Below are positions 9,181-42,684 of a stretch of DNA of 64,000 bases, one piece after another (the stretch's first letter is position 1; each line of letters opens with the position of its first letter). The position numbers and the translations under genes were made by a program. The notes under the pieces were generated by a model. That model was not told the origin of the DNA and searched no databases. It saw only the letters and a list, made by a program, of their open reading frames with translations. This DNA is from Natronolimnobius sp. AArcel1. GTDB taxonomy: Archaea > Halobacteriota > Halobacteria > Halobacteriales > Natrialbaceae. The DNA is taken from positions 372,001 to 436,000 of the forward strand of contig NZ_JAAKXY010000004.1 in the NCBI RefSeq assembly GCF_011043775.1, written 5' to 3'.

Positions 9181-10281
9181 CTACTCCGTGGCAGTATCTG
9201 CGAGGACGTCATCTGCGCCCTCGATCAACCCCGGCTTCCGCTCCGGCGTCGCAATCCAAGCAATATACTGGAGACTGCGCTTATGTGCGTCCGGCGTGAG
9301 CACGGAGCGCGCCTCGAGGTCGTCAGCCTCGAGTTCCTCGTGAGAGTCGCTGAATCCCTGCAGGAGCGAGAGGAGGTATGTCTCGACACCCGGCGAGATC
9401 CACTCGACCGACTGGTAGTACGAAATCGTCCGCGCCGCGTCCTCAAAGCCCGCCGTATCGACGAGATAGCGCACCCACTCAAGGGTCGCAATCTCCGCGT
9501 CGGGCCGGGACGGATGGCGAACCAGATACGGCGGCTCGCCAATCTCACCGTTCTCGCCGAGTTCGACCGCAGGGCCTGACTCTTCCTCGAGTGAGTCCGC
9601 CTCGACAGCGTGAGCATCCGGGTCCGCCTCCGCCTCGAGCGGCTCCTCGAAGTCGTCGGCCGCCTCTGTGTCCTCGAACGGATCGTCGTCTTCAGCGTCA
9701 GCGTCGTCTTCCAGGTCGTCCTCGAATTCGTCGTCGAGTGGTTCGTCTTCCAGCTCGTCTTCGAACGGGTCTGCATCGTCGTCGACCGCATCGAACTCGT
9801 CGTCGAAGTCGTCGGCCGACTCGTCCAAGTCCTCGAGGTCGTCATCAAGGAAGTCCTCAGCCTCGGAGTTCATGATGTCGTCGTCGATATCGTCCTCGGG
9901 GTTGTCACCGCCGAAAACGCCACCCTCGGTTGCGGTCTCGAAGGCGTTGCCAATCTCTTGATCGCCGACAAAGGGGTTGATCCCCTGCGTGACGATTTCG
10001 TACATATCGACGAGGCGGTCGACGTTTCGCTCGACGGTTTGAATCGAGTCGCTGATTTTCTCGTTTTCCCCGCGGACGGTTTCGACTTTGCCTGAAAGGG
10101 AGTCGATCTCTTTTTCGACTTCGTCGAGACGATAGGAGAGTTCATCCTCGTCGTCGTCGCCGTCGTCATCATCGGCGAAGATTGCATCGTCGCCCATCAG
10201 CCCATCCTCTGCACCACCTAGAAGGTCGTCGCCGCTGTCGTCCGGTTCGGTGCCGTCGTCGCCGTCGAGTAGTCCGCTCAT
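9181..10281 (-). CDS. ArlCE/ArlD-type archaellum cytosolic protein (shorter paralogue)
   Basis: The 366-residue acidic protein has the same architecture as the 792-residue protein of the locus. It has a coiled coil at about 47-105 (ENEKISDSIQTVERNVDRL, VTQGINPFV), an Asp/Glu-rich linker of about 120 residues, and a C-terminal FlaD/E domain (about 247-350, with YLVRHPSRPDAEIATLEWVRYLV). The start at MSGLLDGDDG (10281) avoids overlap with arlG, ending 22 bases upstream. The role inferred from the family is cytosolic ring assembly and coupling to the Che proteins. It sits between arlG and arlJ, not upstream of arlF as in Haloferax or Halobacterium. Confidence 0.9.
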   Translation of the reverse strand: MSGLLDGDDGTEPDDSGDDLLGGAEDGLMGDDAIFADDDDGDDDEDELSYRLDEVEKEIDSLSGKVETVRGENEKISDSIQTVERNVDRLVDMYEIVTQGINPFVGDQEIGNAFETATEGGVFGGDNPEDDIDDDIMNSEAEDFLDDDLEDLDESADDFDDEFDAVDDDADPFEDELEDEPLDDEFEDDLEDDADAEDDDPFEDTEAADDFEEPLEAEADPDAHAVEADSLEEESGPAVELGENGEIGEPPYLVRHPSRPDAEIATLEWVRYLVDTAGFEDAARTISYYQSVEWISPGVETYLLSLLQGFSDSHEELEADDLEARSVLTPDAHKRSLQYIAWIATPERKPGLIEGADDVLADTATE

Positions 10282-10303
10282 TGTGTGCTCACCTTGTCTC
10301 CGT

Positions 10304-10804
10304 TCAGTCGTCGCTTCCAGCGTAGAACGCGACGCTGTCTTCGTTGTCCTTGACAATCGCCGTCACTTCTGTATCGCCCGTCAGTGACTCGTCCTCCTCG
10401 ACGAGATTCGCTTCCTCGAGATCGATTGTCGCTTCGATGACGCCACCGGGTCGCCACGAAGACGCCTCGACATCGACGCGCTCGACTGTGGTCGCATCGC
10501 TCGAGACGTAGCGTCCATCAAGCAGCAAGTCGATCGTGGAGGTATCCGCCTCGAGACTCGAGGAGCCGACGTTTTTCACCAGAATAGTCACGTTGTTCTC
10601 CTCCTCGTCGTAGATCGATCCGGGGTGGCGCTCGTCGCTCGCAACCGCAATGTCAGTCTCGATCTCCTCGGCGACGTTCGAGCCACTGGTCTCGATCGCA
10701 TTGCTGAGGTTATCCACCTCGAGAACGACCGTGCCAGCGATACCAGCCGCGACGATCATGCTCGCGACGAACAGGATGATATGGGAAGCCGGGACGCTTG
10801 CCAT
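10304..10804 (-). CDS. arlG: Archaellum stator protein ArlG (FlaG)
   Basis: The 166-residue protein has an N-terminal archaellin-like hydrophobic helix (HIILFVASMIVAAGIAGTVV) and a C-terminal beta-sandwich domain. ArlG forms a pseudoperiplasmic filament capped by ArlF that anchors the motor to the S-layer. The start ATG at 10804 lies immediately next to the arlF stop codon, so the two are translationally coupled. Length is typical. Confidence 0.93.
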   Translation of the reverse strand: MASVPASHIILFVASMIVAAGIAGTVVLEVDNLSNAIETSGSNVAEEIETDIAVASDERHPGSIYDEEENNVTILVKNVGSSSLEADTSTIDLLLDGRYVSSDATTVERVDVEASSWRPGGVIEATIDLEEANLVEEDESLTGDTEVTAIVKDNEDSVAFYAGSDD

Positions 10805-11350
10805 CTAGTCGCCCTCCACGTCGCTCTCGAGTTGCTCGATTGCGGCCGATTCCGTGATGGCGGTCTCGGTGACGATCTTTACGTCCGCTATGTCGTCTGG
10901 GTCCGTCTCATCGTCCGTGACCGCAGCGTCAATCTGGTCGCCGTCGACATCGAACTCGAGAACCGTTCCGGGCGACCAGAGAGTTGAATCCGGTCGCTCG
11001 TCCTCGCCGTCATCAGCAATGACGGTCGTCTCGAGGTCTTCGTGTGGGATGAAGACGCCGTCGATCAGAAGGTCAGTGGTACTAACGTCGAGGGAGTTGG
11101 TGCCATCGTTTGTGACGGTGACAGTGAGGTCACCGTTTTCGTCGTCCTCGCTATCTGTCTCGTAGGGGTCCTGCTCGGCGCTCGTCACGTTGATTGCCGT
11201 ATTCGCCTGATCGCGGGTCTGGTCGGCCTGGGCGGCGAAGGCATCGCCAGTATCCGAGCCGGTGGCGAACACCGTCGGAAAGATGACGCTGGCCGCGATG
11301 AGAAACGCGATGAGCATGACGGCAGCGGCGGCGCTCGTACTAAACCCCAT
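10805..11350 (-). CDS. arlF: Archaellum stator protein ArlF (FlaF)
   Basis: The start at MGFSTSAAAAVMLIAFLIAA (11350) gives 181 residues and the normal ArlF N-terminus. A longer frame to 11572 encodes non-haloarchaeal-looking sequence and was rejected. After the N-terminal membrane helix the protein has an extracytoplasmic beta-sandwich (about 50-170), which in other archaea binds the S-layer. It is the first gene of the arlF-arlG-arlCE-like-arlJ block. The right end of the tnpB element is only about 190 bases upstream, so the insertion may have changed the promoter of this block. Confidence 0.93.
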   Translation of the reverse strand: MGFSTSAAAAVMLIAFLIAASVIFPTVFATGSDTGDAFAAQADQTRDQANTAINVTSAEQDPYETDSEDDENGDLTVTVTNDGTNSLDVSTTDLLIDGVFIPHEDLETTVIADDGEDERPDSTLWSPGTVLEFDVDGDQIDAAVTDDETDPDDIADVKIVTETAITESAAIEQLESDVEGD

Positions 11351-11544
11351 TCCGTTATTCGGGTGAGAGGAAAGCCACATGCAAAAACGCTCTGGCCAGT
11401 TGACTGTCACCGACGGCGACCTGTTTTGGGTTCGTAACCAAGTGCTCGAGCGGTCGTTCTGTGGGTTTGAATCCCGCACTGTCGAACTCATCCGGTCGGT
11501 GATTCTGGCCGATGAGTGGCGACGAGTGACTCGATTGACTTCCA

Positions 11545-11564
11545 CCTCCGCCTGAAGGCGGAGG
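11545..11564. other. Right-end hairpin of the IS element (end of predicted omega RNA)
   Basis: A perfect 8-bp stem reads cctccgcctgaaggcggagg on the plus strand. In IS200/IS605 elements this end is bound by the single-strand transposase and closes the 3' part of the guide (omega/re) RNA. On the minus strand the guide would begin just downstream, at about 11540 and lower. Confidence 0.75.
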
Positions 11565-11597
11565 AATCCCACGGAACCGCACCGCTGAGTTGGGATA

Positions 11598-12920
11598 TTA
11601 AGGTTTGCAGTCTACCACCTCTGCCCGAGGTTGGAATCCTCGGGTGAGGTCATGAAGGTAGACTGAAGGCTGAGCCAACCAGCCGGTACTCCTATCCTCG
11701 TCCAAACTGGCCGAAGACTCGGAGTTACTTTCGTTGTTGGTGTCGAGGCGGATGTTCTCCGCCCCATTCACGTCAGCGTTGAACGCCGCATCGCACTCCT
11801 CACACACGTACAAGCCGCGTTCAACACGTTGACTATCGTCTTCTCTACCGCACACGCAACACGTCTTGCTCGTGTTTCGCTCTGAAACTTCTACGACTTC
11901 GATGCCCTTAACCTTCGCTTTGTACGTGAGAATCGACGTGAAGCGGTCAAACGCCCACCCGTGTAAGTCAAGGTTCCCGTGCTTCCCCCAGTTCTTCGAC
12001 TCGCCATTCTCGTCCTCGCGGACACCAGCGAGTTTCCCGATGTTGATGCGCCCCACACCGTTTTCGATACATCGCTGGACGATGTGTTTAGCGAGGCTGT
12101 GGAAGAAGTGGGTTCGACGCTCCGACCACTTCGCGTGGAGACGAGTGGCCTCAGAACCTCCTGAATCGTCGCACTTGGCAATCTCTTTCGGGAAGTAGTA
12201 CCCATCTTGTTTCAGACGGTTGCCGGGGTACAGGTCGGCCTGTTCGGTACTGTACGCGACCGCCGCGAAGTTGCAGATACCGAGGTCGATGCCCGCTGTC
12301 TCGGTGCCGGGTGCGGTGGGCGTCTCGATTTCGTATTTACAGACGAGGTGGAGTTCCCACCGCTGTTTCGCCTTGTCGTAGACGGCGCGGACTTGTTGCA
12401 GGTTCTCGACGGTGACGCCGGGGCGAGTCTCGTACTCAACGAGGATGTATTCCCACGCTTTCGGGTGTTCCTTGTGATTCGCACCCTTTGAGAGTCGGAC
12501 ACGGTTGTTTTTGGCGTTGTGTTTGATGCCGTTCTGTTTCCACGTCAGCGTACTGCGTGGGTGTTCTTCGTGGACGCGGTTGCCGTTGTCGTCGTAGTAG
12601 TTTTTCTTGCGGTAGCCGGGCGGATTCGCTCGACTGTCGGATTTCCTCTTTTCGTACCACGAGTTGAAGGATTCAGCGAGTTCCTCCAGAACGCGCTGAC
12701 TGGACTGACTGTGCAGTCCCTTGTATTTGGGGTGAGTCTTCAACTCGTCTTTGAGGTCGCCGTGGTCGGGAATCACGCCCGTTTCCTCCCAGACTTCTCG
12801 GGAGTGGTAGTTGGCGACGTTCCAGAGTTTGCTGGCGCTCCACCCGTGCCGGTCGAGCGAGTCCTCTACCTGACCGTGGTTGAGGATTTTCGCCCGATGG
12901 GTTCGGTGGACTTCCAGCAT
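11598..12920 (-). CDS. tnpB: TnpB RNA-guided nuclease-family protein of the IS1341-type element
   Basis: This is an OrfB/TnpB protein of 440 residues from the ATG at 12920 (MLEVHRTHRAKILN). A GTG seven codons upstream is possible. TnpB proteins are Cas12-like nucleases guided by RNA from the element's right end. Numbering from 12920, RuvC-I is GIDLG (Asp212) and RuvC-III is NADVNGAEN (Asp383), with a zinc ribbon between them (CCVCG and CEEC). At RuvC-II the expected Glu is Gly295 in INIGKLAGVRED, with Glu302 seven residues later. The same shift is my recollection of other haloarchaeal copies (IGDLSGIRED). Whether this enzyme cuts is therefore open. The C-terminus GFQPRAEVVDCKP is typical of intact haloarchaeal copies. 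Confidence 0.92.
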   Translation of the reverse strand: MLEVHRTHRAKILNHGQVEDSLDRHGWSASKLWNVANYHSREVWEETGVIPDHGDLKDELKTHPKYKGLHSQSSQRVLEELAESFNSWYEKRKSDSRANPPGYRKKNYYDDNGNRVHEEHPRSTLTWKQNGIKHNAKNNRVRLSKGANHKEHPKAWEYILVEYETRPGVTVENLQQVRAVYDKAKQRWELHLVCKYEIETPTAPGTETAGIDLGICNFAAVAYSTEQADLYPGNRLKQDGYYFPKEIAKCDDSGGSEATRLHAKWSERRTHFFHSLAKHIVQRCIENGVGRINIGKLAGVREDENGESKNWGKHGNLDLHGWAFDRFTSILTYKAKVKGIEVVEVSERNTSKTCCVCGREDDSQRVERGLYVCEECDAAFNADVNGAENIRLDTNNESNSESSASLDEDRSTGWLAQPSVYLHDLTRGFQPRAEVVDCKP

Positions 12921-13036
12921 TCTGAACGTCTGTATAAGCACTTATACTCACTTCTCTTGTAAAGATTGGGTTTGAGAACGGTGGAATATCCAGCTGAGCT
13001 ATCGACGGTGGGTTGTGGAGGTGTTGTCGGATTCAT

Positions 13037-13719: not shown

Positions 13720-14310
13720 TTACTGAGCGAGCGCGCTTCCGTTCAGTTGTGACTCCTCGCCGACGAACCGTTCAGCGTTGGCGATTGACAGCGCAGCGTT
13801 GGCGAACGCGAGGTTCCGACGCGTCGTCTGCCATTCTCGAATCGTTTCGGAGTCGAGATCGTCGTGGGTTGTGGCCGCCTCGGACAGGGTTTGATTCGTT
13901 CGATCAACGAGTAATTCCGCTGGTGATTCGACACCGTATTCGGCCTGAAAGTCGCTAATGCGCTCTCGCATTTCCGAAACGCGGGCGATCAACTCGTCCG
14001 TCGAGACGTGTTCTCGAATATCCGCCGCCTGCTCGACGACGAGTGACTCGGGTGACCGGCGGTAGGTCGTCCCACCGTTCTCACTGGTGTCGGTCGTGAC
14101 GAATCCGTCATCGGCGAGGACGGTGAGGTGTTTTCGTGCCGTCTTCGGCGACGTGCGTGCAGTATCGGCAACGGCATCCGCGGAAACCGGGGTGTAGGCG
14201 CGACTAATGACTTCCCGGACGCGCTCGTAGGGAGTCGTCCCGTCTTCCCACGCCGCACCAACCGCCTCGTTGACATCGTCAAATTCGTCGGGGGTAGTGG
14301 AACCAGTCAT
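13720..14310 (-). CDS. Winged-helix regulator (DUF7342-type), first gene of the HTH/TumE-like cassette
   Basis: The 196-residue product from ATG 14310 (MTGSTTPDEFDDVNE) has an N-terminal winged helix at about 25-85, with the recognition part SADAVADTARTSPKTARKHL and wing TDTSENGGTTY. A long helical C-terminal half follows. I associate it with the DUF7342 family of haloarchaeal HTH proteins. A longer frame upstream is poor in protein-like sequence and was rejected. It precedes the TumE-like gene by three bases and would act as antitoxin or autorepressor of the pair. An AT-rich stretch at about 14325-14350 (gtctttagtaacg) is the likely promoter region. Confidence 0.75.
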   Translation of the reverse strand: MTGSTTPDEFDDVNEAVGAAWEDGTTPYERVREVISRAYTPVSADAVADTARTSPKTARKHLTVLADDGFVTTDTSENGGTTYRRSPESLVVEQAADIREHVSTDELIARVSEMRERISDFQAEYGVESPAELLVDRTNQTLSEAATTHDDLDSETIREWQTTRRNLAFANAALSIANAERFVGEESQLNGSALAQ

Positions 14311-14537
14311 ACGCGCATTTCGCACTGAGGTAACATAGGTCTTTAGTAACGTAGTATGTTCCTTCAGAATATCCGCCACTTTCCCTCGCTTCGTCGCTTT
14401 CCACCACGGCAGAGACGATCTCCTATCCGTCAGTTCCAATGGGGCCGCGACTCGAGTGGTGGTCCTGCCAGTACATCGGTACAACAGTCTGTCCCAGACG
14501 GTACAACTCACCAAGAACTACAAAGAAACAACAGACG

Positions 14538-15104
14538 TCACAGACGCACACTCGAGCCTTCGTTCTCGAGCGTACTGGGGACGGTAATCGCCGTCGTGGT
14601 CTGGACGCCCTGGCCGGTCATAATCGTCACCGACGCGTCGTCATCGGCCTCGAGTGGCCGATCAACCGCGTCCTCGACGTCGATCGACAGCGTGGCGCGG
14701 TCGGAACCGCTCTCGAGGACCGTCCCGTCGTCGCCGTCGACGGTGATATCCTCGTCGTCGAGGACGAGATACGTCTGCCCGCCGGGGCCGACGTAGTTGA
14801 TCGTCGCCTCCTCGAGATCGATCGCGCTCGAGCCGGCGCCGGGGCCGACGGTGATCTCGAGGGTTGGGATTTCGTTGTCGTCCTCGATGGTCCCGACGGC
14901 GGTGTAGACGTCGAGCGAGTCGGAGACCTGCGCGGTGCTTTCGGCACCGGTGGCTTCAGCCTGTGTCTGTAAGGAACCGGCAACGCTGAGCAGCACGGCT
15001 GCTGCGATGGCCGCGACGAGTACCATCGCGACGAAGATAATCAGCGTGCCAATACCGACTTGCCCGCGGTCGCTGCGGGCGTCGTTTGAATCCGACTCTC
15101 TCAT
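14538..15104 (-). CDS. flaB: Archaellin-type protein, short divergent copy
   Basis: The 188-residue protein has the class III signal peptide and N-terminal helix shared by archaellins ([18 protein letters not shown]). The peptide before QVGIG would be removed by the prepilin/archaellin peptidase PibD/FlaK. It is about 130 residues shorter than its neighbours and its C-terminus (STLENEGSSVRL) differs from their [11 protein letters not shown]. The start is the ATG at 15104. A TTG one codon upstream is less likely. Only 44 bases separate it from the preceding archaellin gene and no repeated promoter precedes it, so the two are probably one transcript. It may be a minor or terminal filament subunit. 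Confidence 0.9.
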   Translation of the reverse strand: MRESDSNDARSDRGQVGIGTLIIFVAMVLVAAIAAAVLLSVAGSLQTQAEATGAESTAQVSDSLDVYTAVGTIEDDNEIPTLEITVGPGAGSSAIDLEEATINYVGPGGQTYLVLDDEDITVDGDDGTVLESGSDRATLSIDVEDAVDRPLEADDDASVTIMTGQGVQTTTAITVPSTLENEGSSVRL

Positions 15105-15148
15105 CAAGTATGTGTTTGCGTATTGAAAATATGGTCGACAGACCTAGA

Positions 15149-16090
15149 TTAGAGTGTGACTGCGGAGGACTCCGTCAGCGTCGACGGTGCCATCAGCAGT
15201 TCAACGGTCTGGGAGCCGTCAGCGGTCGTGATCAGGAACTCAGCGTTCTCACCGGACTGGATTGGTGAGAAGTCATCGTCACCTCGCAGTTCGAGATCGA
15301 TCACAAGCTGAGTGTCGGACTCGAGAACTGGGTCAAAGTCAGTGCTCGTGTCGTAGGTGTCACCATTCTCGAGTTCCTCGATATCGAGGTCATCAAGTTC
15401 CTCAACCGTACCGCGCTCGGTCTGGTCACCGACGAACTCGAAGGTGGCAGCGCTCAGGTCGACTGGGTCAGAGCCAGGTCCGAGCGAAACCATCAGTGAA
15501 GCAGATTCGACGTGGTGGTCAGTCTGGAGGGAGAGTACTTCCACATCCACACTGTCATCCTCTTCACCAACTAAATCAATGATAACTTCGTCATCAGAAT
15601 TTATATTTGCTTCAGTAACTTCGATCGTCGTTTCGAAGTCAAGATCATCATCGAGGTTAGTATTATCGCTACCATCGATTTCAATGGTCACTTCATTGTC
15701 ATCCTCACTCATATCGACATTATCAACGGTGTGTTCTGGATCCTCACTCGCATCAGTATCTGTACTTCCTGCTCCGTCAGGATACGTGATATCAACATCA
15801 GTTATCTCTTCACTGTGTTCATCTCCAACAATAATATCAAGGTCCCCTTCAAATGTTCCGTGATCATCAGGCTCTGCGACATCACCTGTTGCAGAGTCAA
15901 TCTGGACGACGTTCGAAACCTGTGCCGTACTCTCTTGACCCGTTGCTTCTGCCTGGGACTGGAGCAGTCCCGCTGTGTTGATCAGGACACCTGCCGCAAT
16001 CGCGGCGACAAGCACCATCGCAATGAACACGATGAGGGTACCGATACCCACCTGACCGCGCTCTTCGTCATCTGTTACTCGTTCAAACAT
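15149..16090 (-). CDS. flaB: Archaellin (major-type filament subunit)
   Basis: The 313-residue product starts at [18 protein letters not shown] (16090). A longer in-frame extension was rejected because the other copies start at the same motif. Residues 1-60 form the signal peptide and the hydrophobic filament-core helix. The C-terminal 110 residues (from [19 protein letters not shown]) are almost identical to the next two copies. The central part (about 65-200) is unrelated in detail, acidic, and of lower GC in DNA. It is preceded by a two-unit promoter repeat. Confidence 0.96.
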
Positions 16091-16146: not shown

Positions 16147-16228
16147 GTTGCCGGAACGTATCAGCTACTTCCAACTAATCTGTATTAAGTCTGTTCGCCA
16201 TTTTTACACTATATAGGTCTTATTGCCG
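16147..16228 (-). promoter_or_regulatory. Promoter-like repeats upstream of the 16090 archaellin start
   Basis: On the plus strand, two units of the pattern TATA-like string, about 5-9 bases, then TTGCCG or TTCGCC occur at 16182-16199 and 16208-16228, a spacing of 29. Read in the transcription direction this is CGGCAA followed by a TATA-like box. A conserved block beginning gttgccggaacgtatca lies at 16146-16178, probably within the 5' leader. Further upstream DNA (16230-16376) is AT-rich without a clear unit. Confidence 0.65.
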
Positions 16229-16376: not shown

Positions 16377-17348
16377 TTAGAGCGTGACTGCGGACTGCTC
16401 CGTCAGCGTCGAGGGAGCCATCAGCAGTTCAACGGTCTGGGAACCGTCAGCGGTCGTGATCAGGAACTCAGCAGACTCACCCGAGTGGATAACGGAGAAG
16501 TCATCGTCGCCATCGTGGAGCGTCAACTCAATCTCGAGTTGGTTATCGGACTCAAGCACTGGGTCGAAGTCCGAAGACGTGTCGTAGGTATCGCCGTTCT
16601 CGAGTTCCGCAATGTCGAGGTCATCAAGTTCGTCGACAGTACCGCGCTCGGTCTCGTCACCGACGTACTCGAAGGTGGCTGCGCTCAGATCGACTGGGTC
16701 AGAGCCAGGACCGAGCGAAACCATTAGTGAGGCCTCAGTGACAACGTGTTCCTGAGCAGTTCCGTCACCACTACTAACGATTTCAGCACTTGCATCCTCG
16801 AAGCCTTCGTCAGTCGCGCCGTCACCTTCACCATCAATTTCGACAGTGATTACTCCATCTTCGACATCTTCACTTTCAATAGTAGATGTGGTGTCGTCAC
16901 CTGACTCCTCAGCTTCAACTTCTACATCGTAATCGTCGTCAGTAAGGTCCAGGTTAGTGAACGCATCAGTATCAATATCACTGAGATCTTCCCCTTCCTC
17001 TAGTTCAACCGTTTCGACAGAATCAGAACTATCGTGCAGTATAAGATCAAACTCAATCTGATCAAGATCATCATCACCATCCGCGACCTCAAACTCAAGG
17101 TCTACATTCTCGAGTGGGTCAATGTCAATCTCTTCTACATCCCCTGTTGCAGAATCAATTTGCACGACGTTGGAAACCTGTGCTGTACTCTCTTCACCCG
17201 TTGCCTCTGCCTGGGACTGGAGCAGCCCCGCCGTGTTGATCAGGACACCTGCCGCAATCGCGGCGACAAGAACCATCGCAATGAACACGATGAGGGTACC
17301 GATACCCACCTGACCGCGCTCTTCATCATCTGTAATTCGTTCAAACAT
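16377..17348 (-). CDS. flaB: Archaellin (major-type filament subunit)
   Basis: The 323-residue product starts at [18 protein letters not shown] (17348). N-terminal residues 1-60 and the C-terminal 110 residues match the neighbouring copy nearly exactly, including [20 protein letters not shown] and [13 protein letters not shown]. The centre (about 65-200) is a different acidic sequence rich in Asp, Glu and Thr. Cleavage after the RG of ERGQVGIG is expected. Its four-unit promoter array at 17441-17547 suggests independent transcription. Confidence 0.96.
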
Positions 17349-17404: not shown

Positions 17405-17547
17405 GTTGCCGGAACGTATCAACGCTTTCTAACTACCGTGTAATAAGGCTACTCGCCGTTCTGACACTATATAACTCTACTTGCCGAAAGGGATAGCACT
17501 TAAATCTGCTTGCCAGAATCTCTTCTTTCACTTAACCCTATTTGCCG
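17405..17547 (-). promoter_or_regulatory. Four-unit promoter-like repeat array upstream of the 17348 archaellin start
   Basis: TTGCCG-type hexamers on the plus strand begin at 17453 (tcgccg), 17481, 17510 (ttgcca) and 17542, spaced 28, 29 and 32. Each is preceded by an AT-rich TATA-like string: taataagg, ctatataact, cttaaatct and cttaaccct. In the direction of transcription, each unit is CGGCAA followed by a TATA-like element. The conserved leader block lies at 17405-17436. The second unit has the best TATA box (tatata). Confidence 0.7.
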
Positions 17548-18009: not shown

Positions 18010-18981
18010 TTAGAGCGTGACCGCAGAGGACTCCGTCAGCGTCGAGGGAGCCATCAGCAGTTCAACGCTCTGGGAGCCATCAGCAGTCGTAATCTGGAAC
18101 TCTGCAGATTCACCGGCTGCGAGTGGGGAGAACATGTCGTTGTTCTCGTTGAGGTGTAGTTCAATCTCGAGTTGGTTGTCGGACTCGAGAACGCCCTGGA
18201 AGTTCTCGGCGCTGTCGCCCAGCGTCTCACCGTTGCCGTTCTCAAGTTCGTGGACATCTAAGTCCTCGAGTTCCTCAGCAGTACCACGTTCGGTGTAGTC
18301 GCCGACGAACTCGAACGTTGCTGCACTGAGGTCAACTGGATCCGAACCAGGACCGAGCGAAACCATCATCGAAGCCTCATGGACCATATGTTCGTCTGTG
18401 CCATCACCTTCGCTGGTGATTTCTGGAGCGTCTGCACCACTGTTGAGGCCGTTATTGTCTTCGTTGTCGTCGATTGCAACAGTGATGGTTCCATCCTCAA
18501 CATCTTCTGCTTCAAATGCGCTTGTTTCAGGGCTGTCTTCGTTACTTTCAAATTCAATGTAATACCCACCAGCACTGAGGTCTAAGTTAGTGAAGTCGGA
18601 GGTGGAAACTGCATTTAGACCTTCATCCTCGGCAATTTCAACAGTTTCTATAGAGTCATCATTATCGTCCTTTAGAACGATATCAAAGCTAATATCGTCT
18701 ATTTCACCTTCTGCCCCTTCCTGTAATTCGAAGTCAATGTCAACGTTCTCGAGCGGACCGATCTCGTCAACATTGCCAGTTACAGAGTCAATCTGCACAA
18801 CGTTAGAAACCTCTGCCGTACTTTCTTCACCAGTCGCCTCTGCCTGCGACTGCAGAAGTCCGGCCGTATTGAGTAATACACCTGCCGCAATCGCTGCGAC
18901 GAGCACCATAGCGATGAACACGATGAGGGTACCGATTCCCACCTGACCGCGTTCCTCGTCATCTGTAAGTCGTTCGAACAT
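18010..18981 (-). CDS. flaB: Archaellin (major-type filament subunit), first gene of the array
   Basis: The 323-residue product starts at [18 protein letters not shown] (18981). It has the class III signal peptide, a hydrophobic core helix at about 14-45, and the conserved C-terminal 110 residues ([19 protein letters not shown] onwards, ending [11 protein letters not shown]). The centre differs from the other copies. It lies first in transcription order and has the most regular promoter array (19071-19180). It is probably a main filament subunit, by position and by similarity to the next two. Confidence 0.96.
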
Positions 18982-19035: not shown

Positions 19036-19180
19036 GTTGCCGGCGCGTACACTCCGCTTCTAACTACCCGTTATTAAACTTGTTCGCCAACCTGACACTA
19101 TATAAGTCCACTTGCCGACCACCAATCACTGATAAAGCTACTTGCCGATGTTCCGTCCCCCTACTTAGGTATTCTTGCCG
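19036..19180 (-). promoter_or_regulatory. Four-unit promoter-like repeat array upstream of the 18981 archaellin start
   Basis: Units on the plus strand lie at 19071-19088, 19097-19117, 19128-19147 and 19161-19180. Their hexamers (ttcgcc, ttgccg, ttgccg, ttgccg) begin at 19083, 19112, 19142 and 19175, spaced 29, 30 and 33. Each is preceded by a TATA-like string (ttattaaac, ctatataag, tgataaag, cttaggt). The second unit has the best TATA box (centre about 19102), placing a transcript start near 19073. The leader block (gttgccggcgcgtac) starts at 19036. Confidence 0.7.
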
Positions 19181-20177: not shown

Positions 20178-20735
20178 TTACTGCGAGAGTGAGACTGACG
20201 AGTTTGATGAGCCGTTTTGCACCGGATACAGTTCTCGAGCATCGTCATAGAGTTCAAGTGCGTGTTTGAGCAGGCGCTTGTTGTCCTCGTAGCGGTCCCA
20301 CTGTCGAAGCACACGGTTGCGTTCCCGAATGGCGTCGCTGTCGAGCCCATCATCGGTAAGCGTCGATTCCAACTCACCCCGCGATTCAACGGCGAATTCG
20401 TGCTTCCAGTCGTCGATTTCTGCCTGGATAGCTGCGAGTTCGTCGCGGAGTTCCTCTCGCGTGTGGCTGTTGATCAGCGCAGTCACTTCGTTGACGTACC
20501 GAAGTTGATAGTTCGGTGCATACTTCGTGTTGCCGTCATCACCGTCGACAGCCTGCACTTGCCCGAATTCGACGAGCATCTCGAGTTCGTCTTTCGCGGT
20601 CTGCCACGAGGAGATCTGCGCTTCCTCGCGCACCCACTCGACGGAGCGTGGTTTAGTGAGGGCCGTAGCGATCTCTCTGACGCGCTCCCGTGCAGTAAGA
20701 TCGTCCGTCCACGAGCCGAGGCCGGAATCAGTCAT
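20178..20735 (-). CDS. Winged-helix regulator (DUF7342-type), second cassette
   Basis: The 185-residue protein has an N-terminal winged helix at about 12-75 (RVREIATALTKPRSVEWVREEA, AKDELEMLVEFGQV, wing DGDDGNTKY). A long helical C-terminal half follows, with the conserved ELRDELAAIQAEIDDWKHEF pattern also seen in the 13720-14310 protein. It is the first gene of a pair with the 19662-20168 gene. An AT-rich stretch (tattatatttttgg, about 20758-20772) directly upstream is a good promoter candidate. Confidence 0.78.
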   Translation of the reverse strand: MTDSGLGSWTDDLTARERVREIATALTKPRSVEWVREEAQISSWQTAKDELEMLVEFGQVQAVDGDDGNTKYAPNYQLRYVNEVTALINSHTREELRDELAAIQAEIDDWKHEFAVESRGELESTLTDDGLDSDAIRERNRVLRQWDRYEDNKRLLKHALELYDDARELYPVQNGSSNSSVSLSQ

Positions 20736-20917: not shown

Positions 20918-21781
20918 CTACTTGCTGTTCATCGCTTCGCTCGCAATATTCCGTCCGCGTGGCTTCAACGCGACTTCCCGGCGAACTCGTACTTCCTCTA
21001 ACACGTCCAACTCGATCAGGCGCTCGTAAATCTCCTCGACTTCGTCGGTGTTGATGTCCAGAAACTCGGGGACTTCGAACGGCGAGACGCCGGAGTAGAT
21101 AGCCATCAGTACCTCCTCTTCCTTACCGGATAAATCGATCTGTGAGGCGTTTTTCTCGGCCCCGCGGTCCAGCACGGACTTCATGATGGCACAGTTTTGC
21201 GAGCCACCGGAGATGTACGTCTGGACGCTCGAGCCGTTATCGGTGTGTTCAGCTTCGATGACGGGGCGCTCTTGGGAGAGCACGGTTCGTTCCTCGCTGG
21301 TGACGGTGCCGACATCGTCGACTTCAATCTGGACGAATGAGCCGTTCTCGACGGCGAAGTTCGCAACGCCAGTGTCGATTTTGACGCGGGCTTTGCTCCA
21401 GGAAGTATCCTGAACGACGCCGCCTTTGACAGCGGGGTGTTTGAGCAAGAGGATTTCACCGTCCAGCATGGCTTTCTGGATCTGAAGTTCGAACTCGTGG
21501 ACCTCGGCCATCGAGATCAGGTGCACGTCCGCGCCGACGTTGATGCTGATGTAATCAGAAACCTTCGCGACAGTCTGATTGACGTCGTAGCGGCCCTTGA
21601 TCGAGATGATCTCCGAGAGCGGGATCGTCCGCTTGCCGTCATTGCTCGCGATCACCAGTCGCTTGTTCGAAAGGACGATTCGCCCGTTTGTCCAGTTGGT
21701 ATCCGACAGCTTCCGGCCATCGCGCAGTACCTGCGTGAACTTCCCCGTCACATCCGCGAGTTTCTGTTCGGACTTACTCAT
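20918..21781 (-). CDS. cheF: CheF-family archaeal chemotaxis protein, second copy
   Basis: The 287-residue protein matches CheF from the N-terminus (VTGKFTQVLRDGRKL, TNGRIVLSNKRLVIA) through the conserved LLLKHPAVKGGVVQDTSW to a winged-helix-like C-terminus (EEEVLMAIYSGVSPFEVPEFL). CheF adaptors link CheY, CheD and CheC to the archaellum. Its ATG overlaps the stop of the upstream HEAT-repeat gene by four bases (ATGA). This matches Halobacterium, where CheF genes neighbour a HEAT-repeat partner. Confidence 0.9.
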   Translation of the reverse strand: MSKSEQKLADVTGKFTQVLRDGRKLSDTNWTNGRIVLSNKRLVIASNDGKRTIPLSEIISIKGRYDVNQTVAKVSDYISINVGADVHLISMAEVHEFELQIQKAMLDGEILLLKHPAVKGGVVQDTSWSKARVKIDTGVANFAVENGSFVQIEVDDVGTVTSEERTVLSQERPVIEAEHTDNGSSVQTYISGGSQNCAIMKSVLDRGAEKNASQIDLSGKEEEVLMAIYSGVSPFEVPEFLDINTDEVEEIYERLIELDVLEEVRVRREVALKPRGRNIASEAMNSK

Positions 21782-23049
21782 GCGAAGTCACCACTCATCG
21801 CGCCTGCACCGCCCAGTTTCGACAGCGCAGAAAAGCCACGCTTTCGAAGCCGGTCACTCTCAGTTCGATCGACAAACGACGAAATCCGGGTGCGAGACTG
21901 CTCCCCACCGATTTTCCCCAGCACGAACAGCGCCTTCACGCGTGTCTCCTCGTCGCGGTGGGAGTCATCAATCAACTCGAGTAGTCGCTTCTCGAGCCCA
22001 TCGCCGTCGAGCAACGAGAGGCTGGTCGCGGCGAACTTCGAGGTCATTTCGTCGTCGTCAGCGAGCGTTTCGATCAGCGCGTCCTGGGCGACAGTTCGGT
22101 ACTCGTCGCTTGCAATCCGGCCAAGGAGCCACGCTGCGTTGCGTCGCTGGGCCGTCTCCGTACTCCGATCGAGAATATCGATCAGCGGCTCGATTGCCTC
22201 ACTGGCGGTTGCCTGCTCGAGTTCGCCGACGATCTTCTCGCGAACCTTGTGACTCGCAGAGGCCGGGGCTTCGGAGAGTAACTGCACCAGCGAGAACATC
22301 GCCGTTCGCCGGACGGCATCGGAGTCATCGCGTAGCGCCTCAGCAAGGACTTCAACGGCACGCACGCTGCCGAGACGTCCGAGGGCGTCGACGGCGATTC
22401 GGCGAACTGTTTCGTCCTCATCGTTTGCAACCTCGATCAGTTCACGCAAGGCGTTGTCCGTCCCGATATCAGCGAGTGCGTACGCAATCTCAATCCGGAC
22501 GTCGTACTGATCGTTGTGAAGCCGCTGTGAGAGTGCCGGAACGGCTTCGGGGGCTTCGATTCGACCGAGCGCACGGGCGACCCGTTTTCGAACTCGCGGG
22601 TCCGGATCGGCAAGTCGCTCGGCGAGTGCGTTCAACACGTTGTCCTCGCCGATGCGTCCAAGGCCGGTCGCGGCCGCCATGCGCAGTTCGGGCCGGTCAG
22701 CAGAGAGCCCGCGTGCGAGCAGTTGGGCTTTCTTCCACTCAGCGATGTTATCAATATCCTGGCCAGAGACCTCGCCGATAAACTGCTCTAAGGCGTCCTG
22801 TCCAAACTGGTCGAGCGCGTCGATAGCGGCTGCACGCACGCTATCGGCGTCATCCTCCTGTGAGACGTCGACGAGGGCGTCGATAATCTCATCTCGAGGA
22901 TAGCCATACTCCTCGCCCTCGCTGGTTTTCGACTCTAAACTGCCGATGATTTCGGCAGCGCGCGTGCGGATGTCGTCGTTTGGACTTTCCTCGAGATAGG
23001 TGAGGAGTTGCTCGAAGTCAGCGTTGCGCTCGAGTTCGAATAGCGTCAT
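21778..23049 (-). CDS. HEAT-repeat protein, likely CheF partner
   Basis: The 423-residue protein is made of about 10 HEAT/PBS-lyase-like helical repeats, visible as SVRAAAIDALDQFG, ELRMAAATGLGRIGED, RVRKRVARALGRI, DVRIEIAYALADIG and TVRRIAVDALGRLG. The repeat solenoid is a protein-binding scaffold. In Halobacterium a similar protein (OE2401F) binds CheF and the Che system and is needed for taxis. Here the gene is translationally coupled to cheF, supporting the same role. Confidence 0.85.
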   Translation of the reverse strand: MTLFELERNADFEQLLTYLEESPNDDIRTRAAEIIGSLESKTSEGEEYGYPRDEIIDALVDVSQEDDADSVRAAAIDALDQFGQDALEQFIGEVSGQDIDNIAEWKKAQLLARGLSADRPELRMAAATGLGRIGEDNVLNALAERLADPDPRVRKRVARALGRIEAPEAVPALSQRLHNDQYDVRIEIAYALADIGTDNALRELIEVANDEDETVRRIAVDALGRLGSVRAVEVLAEALRDDSDAVRRTAMFSLVQLLSEAPASASHKVREKIVGELEQATASEAIEPLIDILDRSTETAQRRNAAWLLGRIASDEYRTVAQDALIETLADDDEMTSKFAATSLSLLDGDGLEKRLLELIDDSHRDEETRVKALFVLGKIGGEQSRTRISSFVDRTESDRLRKRGFSALSKLGGAGAMSGDFA

Positions 23050-27528: not shown

Positions 27529-28035
27529 ATGCGTGAGGAGACAACCAATACATCGTCCGTGTTCGACGATCTGTCAGACACGGCAGTGGACACTCAGTCG
27601 GAATCGTACGAAAGCCCTCTTGGCTCACTCGAGGGATCGAAACACACGACCGAATCGGTCGAGCGCGAACTCGAAGCCCTGATGGAGCAGGTAAACGGGA
27701 CGCTCGCGACCGAGGACGTGCAGTTCGATGAGGCGATGATCAAGGAGAATCTCGAAGAGATTTTGCTCTTGCTCATCGCCGTTCGTGGGGAAGCCCACGG
27801 CAAGGAACTGCTCTCTGATTTGACACAGTTGTTCGACGCAACGCTCAGTCCGGGGACGGTCTATCCCGCACTGCACGCGCTGAACGAAGCGGACGTGCTG
27901 GCGATGCACACCAAAGTGCGAACAAAAGAGTATTCCATCGACGACGGGGCACACGTCCGTGAGACCGTCGAGCAGACGATGGTACAGCACCTGGCGTTTG
28001 GACTCTTACTGTACGCATTTCTCGGCCGACTCTAA
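27529..28035 (+). CDS. PadR-like winged-helix transcriptional regulator
   Basis: The 168-residue protein has a low-complexity N-terminal 60 residues followed by a PadR-type winged helix: ENLEEILLLLIAVRGEAHGKEL, then LSPGTVYPALHALNEADVLAMH and the wing VRTKEYSIDDGA. Such regulators bind DNA as dimers through the last helix. No effector site is visible. It stands alone between long non-coding DNA and a convergent gene. Confidence 0.85.
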   Translation: MREETTNTSSVFDDLSDTAVDTQSESYESPLGSLEGSKHTTESVERELEALMEQVNGTLATEDVQFDEAMIKENLEEILLLLIAVRGEAHGKELLSDLTQLFDATLSPGTVYPALHALNEADVLAMHTKVRTKEYSIDDGAHVRETVEQTMVQHLAFGLLLYAFLGRL

Positions 28036-42399: not shown

Positions 42400-42684
42400 A
42401 GCACCCAGAAATGCGCTTTCCGGCGTGATAAATCCAGCGTGTTACTATGAGGATTGACCGTGTGAAACCCGTCCTCGACGGAATTGTATGCGCGTTACGT
42501 ACCCAAGTAGTAGACATTCATCCAATTTTATGTCTTATTGCCAGACTCGAGTGGACAGTTGTAGGATTGGTACGAGACGACTGCAGTCGTCGAAATCGAT
42601 GTGAGCGACGGGCGATGAGCCTCAAGCGAGGCCGCGGGGACGAACGAACACGCTTTTTTAGCGTCCATCCCGTCGGCTACGGAC

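Follow-up and report, generated by a model that had tools for sequence, protein, structure and literature searches.

The three archaellin genes of this locus are each preceded by a series of short units that resemble core promoters and recur at nearly constant spacing, which raises the question of whether these are stacked promoters, the operators of a regulator or something else. The window, that is, the whole 64-kb stretch of DNA analysed here, corresponds to positions 372001-436000 of contig C4 of a haloarchaeal genome of 4.56 Mb. It holds archaellin genes A, B and C and the archaellin-like gene D (Table 1), and the archaellin assignment made by the initial annotation from the sequence is borne out by the PF01917 match. 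Genes resembling arlF/arlG and ArlC/DE lie downstream (9181-11572) and a CheF gene and a HEAT-repeat gene lie upstream (20918-23049), neighbours that identify the locus as an archaellum-chemotaxis region. A TnpB-like protein with OrfB_IS605 and Cas12f1-like TNB domains (11598-12941) is inserted between the archaellin genes and arlF, while the archaellin genes are bordered on either side by a DUF7342 helix-turn-helix protein with a small gene next to it (13720-14514 and 20178-20735); none of the relatives examined has these pairs in the corresponding region, and they are therefore probably mobile or toxin-antitoxin-like. Gene D, correctly described at the outset as having no array, possesses a TATA/BRE match of its own at -26 from the ATG (15130-15140, minus strand; 99th percentile of the control) and may be transcribed on its own as a leaderless message, which renders uncertain the read-through from gene C that had also been proposed.

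All ten hexamers previously noted before genes A, B and C are present, eight of them exactly at the coordinates given and two displaced by one base: the unit 1 hexamer of gene A occupies 19084-19089 (start given as 19083) and that of gene C 16195-16200 (start given as 16194). Counting back from the base that precedes the ATG, hexamer starts lie at -199, -166, -136 and -108 for gene A, at -199, -167, -138 and -110 for gene B, and at -138 and -110 for gene C. The spacings, from the gene outward, are 28, 30 and 33 (A), 28, 29 and 32 (B) and 28 (C), in agreement with the range of 28-33 bases first reported.

Table 1. Archaellin genes, array units and predicted start sites, in window coordinates.
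Feature	Coordinates	Strand	Details
Archaellin gene A	18010..18981	-	323 aa; PF01917 E 3.5e-28
Gene A predicted start site (A at 19048) and start-site box	19036..19048	-	ACGCGCCGGCAAC
Gene A unit 1 (proximal)	19074..19089	-	TGGCGAACAAGTTTAA; likely productive core promoter; AA at -11/-10, A at predicted +1
Gene A unit 2	19102..19117	-	CGGCAAGTGGACTTAT; GC at -11/-10
Gene A unit 3	19132..19147	-	CGGCAAGTAGCTTTAT; CG at -11/-10
Gene A unit 4	19165..19180	-	CGGCAAGAATACCTAA; weakest; native core-promoter score -0.2
Archaellin gene B	16377..17348	-	323 aa; 69% identity to A; archaellin N-terminal domain TIGR02537
Gene B predicted start site (A at 17417) and start-site box	17405..17417	-	ACGTTCCGGCAAC
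Gene B unit 1 (proximal)	17443..17458	-	CGGCGAGTAGCCTTAT
Gene B unit 2	17471..17486	-	CGGCAAGTAGAGTTAT
Gene B unit 3	17500..17515	-	TGGCAAGCAGATTTAA
Gene B unit 4	17532..17547	-	CGGCAAATAGGGTTAA
Archaellin gene C	15149..16090	-	313 aa; 59% identity to A; TIGR02537
Gene C predicted start site (A at 16159) and start-site box	16147..16159	-	ACGTTCCGGCAAC
Gene C unit 1 (proximal)	16185..16200	-	TGGCGAACAGACTTAA
Gene C unit 2	16213..16228	-	CGGCAATAAGACCTAT
Archaellin-like gene D	14538..15104	-	188 aa; without array

The units exceed chance expectation and the observation is real. The strict pattern CGGCAAGNNGNNTTAT has three matches in the 4.56-Mb genome, all before the archaellin genes of the window, and the relaxed pattern YGGCRANNAGNNTTAW has 13 genome-wide (none for the reversed control), six of which fall at these genes while two belong to a second cluster of archaellin genes, on contig C8. 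The test to rely on is a position weight matrix trained on 74 units from other genera with the window's genus left out; the matrix behind the count in relatives given below contains the window's own sites. With this held-out matrix the ten units score 14.5-25.2 and make up 10 of the top 11 among the approximately 128,000 positions on both strands of the 64-kb window, while the highest score in a 400-kb sample from other parts of this genome is 14.0, below all ten. The initial annotation would have been undermined by a motif equally common elsewhere; the genome scan and the held-out matrix show instead that it is rare. The second cluster carries a two-unit array (C8:72657-72705) with a spacing of 33 bp rather than 28, accounted for by five extra bases before the TGTCA element of unit 1. 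A further sequence, TAGTGTCA, is well conserved between units 2 and 1 (17459-17470, 19090-19101 and 16201-16212, minus strand) and its distance to unit 1 is unaffected by the 5-bp insert; it may represent a distinct site for a protein at about -50.

Unit-like sites also occur singly. One, TGGCAATAAGACATAA, lies at window position 42543 on the minus strand with a held-out score of 16.6, and isolated sites elsewhere often stand where an ordinary gene has its core promoter, the distance from hexamer to start codon being about 42-44 nt. Strong single units (C8:71577-71714 and C8:81566-81703, minus strand; C7:49269) precede a short repeated hairpin-like element, ATGGCAAGGGGGTGGGGGATTGTCGTTGCC...CACCCCCTTGCC, placed 27-29 bp after the TATA box of the unit copy. 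This element has five copies in the window's genome and two in a congener, gave no confident Rfam match and is perhaps a genus-specific small RNA family.

A scan of 209 archaellin upstream regions with the motif model detected 98 units, distributed over 32 promoters, where Markov shuffles lead one to expect 0.5; all 98 are in the coding orientation, compared with three on the opposite strand. Such arrays are found before archaellin genes of at least seven genus groups of the Natrialbaceae, a lower estimate; the promoters come from the window's genus, Halostagnicola, Halobiforma, Natrialba and further groups of this family. Complete four-unit arrays with matching spacings are found in these four genera and in genome G014, while the motif scan shows no array at the archaellin loci of Halorubrum, Halobaculum and Halobacterium. 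The spacing is 28 or 29 between units 1 and 2 (27/30), 29 or 30 between units 2 and 3 (20/21) and 32 or 33 between units 3 and 4 (15/15). Between genera the units are 68-79% identical, as against 26-39% for the ten bases before each unit, and the pattern persists in 27 promoters with less than 60% identity to one another. Conservation of the proximal unit only, which would have told against the arrays, is thus not what is seen, the distal units being equally conserved. The proposal that the units lie on the same face of the DNA did not hold up: 28 or 29 bp correspond to 2.7-2.8 turns and 33 bp to 3.1 turns, and 31 bp, the spacing closest to three turns, occurs in none of 65 neighbour spacings, so that helical phasing was rejected. 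No description of such arrays was found in the openly available literature searched. Two Halostagnicola genomes (loci L199 in G035 and L200 in G072) carry one unit before orthologous genes of about 510-520 aa that resemble membrane signal transducers and lie about 15 kb from the archaellin genes; these single units are about 1480-1560 from the locus start, on the motif's strand.

What a unit consists of was assessed with a native core-promoter matrix derived from 82 apparently leaderless upstream regions of the same genome, in which the TATA box lies 27-33 bp before the start codon (modal distance 30 bp). Slid along the units, this matrix gives positive medians at one register only, with the TATA start at hexamer + 11 (6.4, 3.6, 6.2 and 5.3 bits for units 1-4), all other tested registers being negative. 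The corresponding percentiles against the control, which rest on 82 promoters, are 95-99th across units 1-4 and 99th for unit 1, and a BRE and a TATA box at native spacing are accordingly present in unit 1 and in units 2-4. The most invariant adenines of the unit occupy positions -6 and -3 relative to the TATA box, which have been named as the strongest BRE determinants (PMC5512572). The hexamer overlaps the core promoter with its 3' half on the BRE, leaving just upstream of it a GGC (at about -40 to -38) that is invariant in the units and is not a feature of native promoters. The single native register together with this GGC therefore defines the unit as GGC, BRE and TATA, and every unit is promoter-like in sequence.

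Promoter-likeness is shared by all units, whereas the elements expected at a start site are not. At -11/-10 native promoters are slightly enriched in A/T (fraction 0.56/0.60), in line with a 'WW' -10 element that has been put forward for haloarchaea (PMC4983044). The A+T fraction at these positions is 0.88/0.97 for unit 1, 0.03/0.07 for unit 2 and 0/0 for unit 3, the place being occupied in units 2 and 3 by the invariant GGC of the next unit; unit 4 is unconstrained (0.53/0.67). A start-site box, A(C/T)(G/T)...C(C/G)G, follows the unit 1 hexamer by 41 +/- 1 bases (30 bp from the TATA start) in 28 of the 32 promoters, but it follows unit 2 in only 4/30, unit 3 in 0/21 and unit 4 in 2/15. In genes A, B and C unit 1 has both AA at -11/-10 and an A at the predicted start, a combination present in no distal unit. 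This sequence evidence points to one productive promoter per gene. The sequence CCGGCAAC at -62, considered as a fifth unit, was rejected since it has no TATA box in register and is the start-site box.

We weighed several explanations of the arrays, of which the one we favour, at close to an even chance, is that each archaellin gene has one productive promoter and an upstream array of BRE-TATA docking sites that do not initiate. Unit 1, with its BRE, TATA box, AA at -11/-10 and conserved start-site box, would be the productive core promoter, preceded by one to three head-to-tail BRE-TATA copies; the first transcribed base would be the A located 30 bp beyond the beginning of the TATA box (Table 1), and the leader would be about 67-69 nt long. 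In the upstream copies GGC, BRE and TATA are retained, but elements for melting and start are lacking, their place being occupied by the next unit, which suggests that these copies serve for docking and not for initiation. TFB and TBP, probably joined by a further factor that recognises the invariant GGC immediately preceding the BRE, would fill neighbouring units cooperatively, and occupancy of the array would then control the loading of unit 1. The protein bound, the cooperativity and the sign of the effect are what we infer here, activation being more likely than repression. The distal units are under selection for sequence, direction and distance, and yet seem unable to start RNA, and the orientation bias of 98 to 3 fits a polar, asymmetric TBP-TFB complex and not a homodimer binding a dyad. 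Some points count against the proposal: the GGC, invariant in the units, is foreign to the native BRE, so that TFB alone is insufficient to explain the motif, and copies of any operator overlapping BRE and TATA would also look promoter-like. It has been proposed that haloarchaea use their sets of TBP and TFB to choose between classes of promoter (PMC2121645). A dedicated, array-specific TFB is unsupported, since 79 TFBs of 10 genomes, placed in one tree, form no array-only clade common to the array-bearing genera; reuse of a shared TFB at the arrays is possible. The bolder version, in which the distal units are true TBP-TFB assembly sites without initiation and the array is an archaeal enhancer of reiterated core promoters feeding basal factors to a single productive promoter, can be offered only tentatively.

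In the main competing explanation, itself doubtful but of real weight, the units are operators of a sequence-specific regulator bound head-to-tail. At unit 1 its site would overlap BRE and TATA, so that the regulator would block TFB/TBP as a repressor or hand them over as an activator, and the distal units would look promoter-like merely as copies of an operator fitted to a promoter. Such a regulator would account for the invariance of GGC and TAG, both outside the native BRE/TATA consensus, and for exact spacing with unconserved spacers; hindrance of TFB or TBP is moreover common among archaeal repressors (PMC5512572), and the absence of a CsmR-type operator from the array promoters (see below) would leave room for another regulator in its place. 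However, the neighbourhood of the archaellin genes holds no regulator gene specific to array bearers: a PadR-like gene (27529-28035) occurs both with and without arrays. An asymmetric site in constant orientation is also unusual for winged-helix homodimers, and the distal units score as native core promoters with their BRE determinants intact.

The initial annotation had described the arrays as stacked core promoters or cooperative operators, and the promoter-like character of the units stands, whereas activity of units 2 and 3 as promoters does not. If each unit made its own transcript, output would be additive or starts condition-specific, and the BRE and TATA box of each unit and a period of 28-30 bp nearly equal to the TATA-to-start distance of 29-30 bp would be in keeping with this. 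The G/C bases at -11/-10 in units 2 and 3 and the scarcity of the start box after the distal units nevertheless make stacked active promoters unlikely, and independent promoters give no reason for so fixed a spacing; we regard this reading as improbable. Least credible by far is that the arrays are a by-product of recent duplication of archaellin genes with their promoters, the distal units being functionless: genes A-C are indeed paralogues with similar promoters, but the preservation of units over spacers between genera, and of the pattern in 27 promoters of low mutual identity, speaks strongly against it.

Among known systems of archaellum control, CsmR of Haloferax volcanii binds the semi-palindrome TATCA(N4)TGATA beside the TATA box of archaellum and chemotaxis genes (PMC13286277); its operator is a single site that controls a haloarchaeal archaellin promoter from just upstream of BRE/TATA, as the array may do. 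With up to two mismatches, this site is found in 37 of 43 archaellin promoters, mostly of Halorubrum, Halobaculum and other non-Natrialbaceae (mean 1.81 mismatches vs 3.53 when shuffled). Only 1 of 24 array promoters matched, equal to shuffled sequence (mean 3.42 vs 3.43), a contrast that is weak inside the Natrialbaceae, where four array-less promoters passed the intergenic filter; a CsmR site hidden within the array was rejected on this basis. The array thus stands where the other haloarchaeal control element is missing. In Methanococcus maripaludis EarA uses four repeated short sites upstream of the BRE of the fla promoter (PMC5512572). The comparison with EarA drawn by the initial annotation is apt as an analogy of layout but does not extend to membership: EarA sites are 6-bp boxes outside BRE/TATA, the repeats here include both, so that the arrays do not have the EarA-type layout of repeats outside the core promoter, and EarA is stated by the CsmR authors to be absent from haloarchaea (PMC13286277).

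Archaellum control in haloarchaea beyond Haloferax is largely open, and the sole characterised haloarchaeal regulator site, that of CsmR, is missing here; the array offers a precise, testable element common to several genera. If the distal units do load TBP/TFB without starting RNA, basal factors can act as upstream regulators in archaea, which would be a possible reason for the many archaeal TFB copies.

The Ss-LrpB and BarR operators of Sulfolobus resemble the array in having several regularly spaced sites in one promoter; known Lrp sites are palindromic, whereas the array units are asymmetric and all in one direction. For Ss-LrpB cooperative binding has been modelled, according to a title cited in PMC4977709. 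A further counterpart of a unit is the haloarchaeal core promoter itself, composed of BRE, TATA, -10 WW and start: unit 1 shares all of these elements and units 2-4 share BRE and TATA at the native register. The array differs from it in reiterating the promoter two to four times in fixed register, in distal copies without the -10 and start elements, and in the extra invariant GGC that precedes each BRE.
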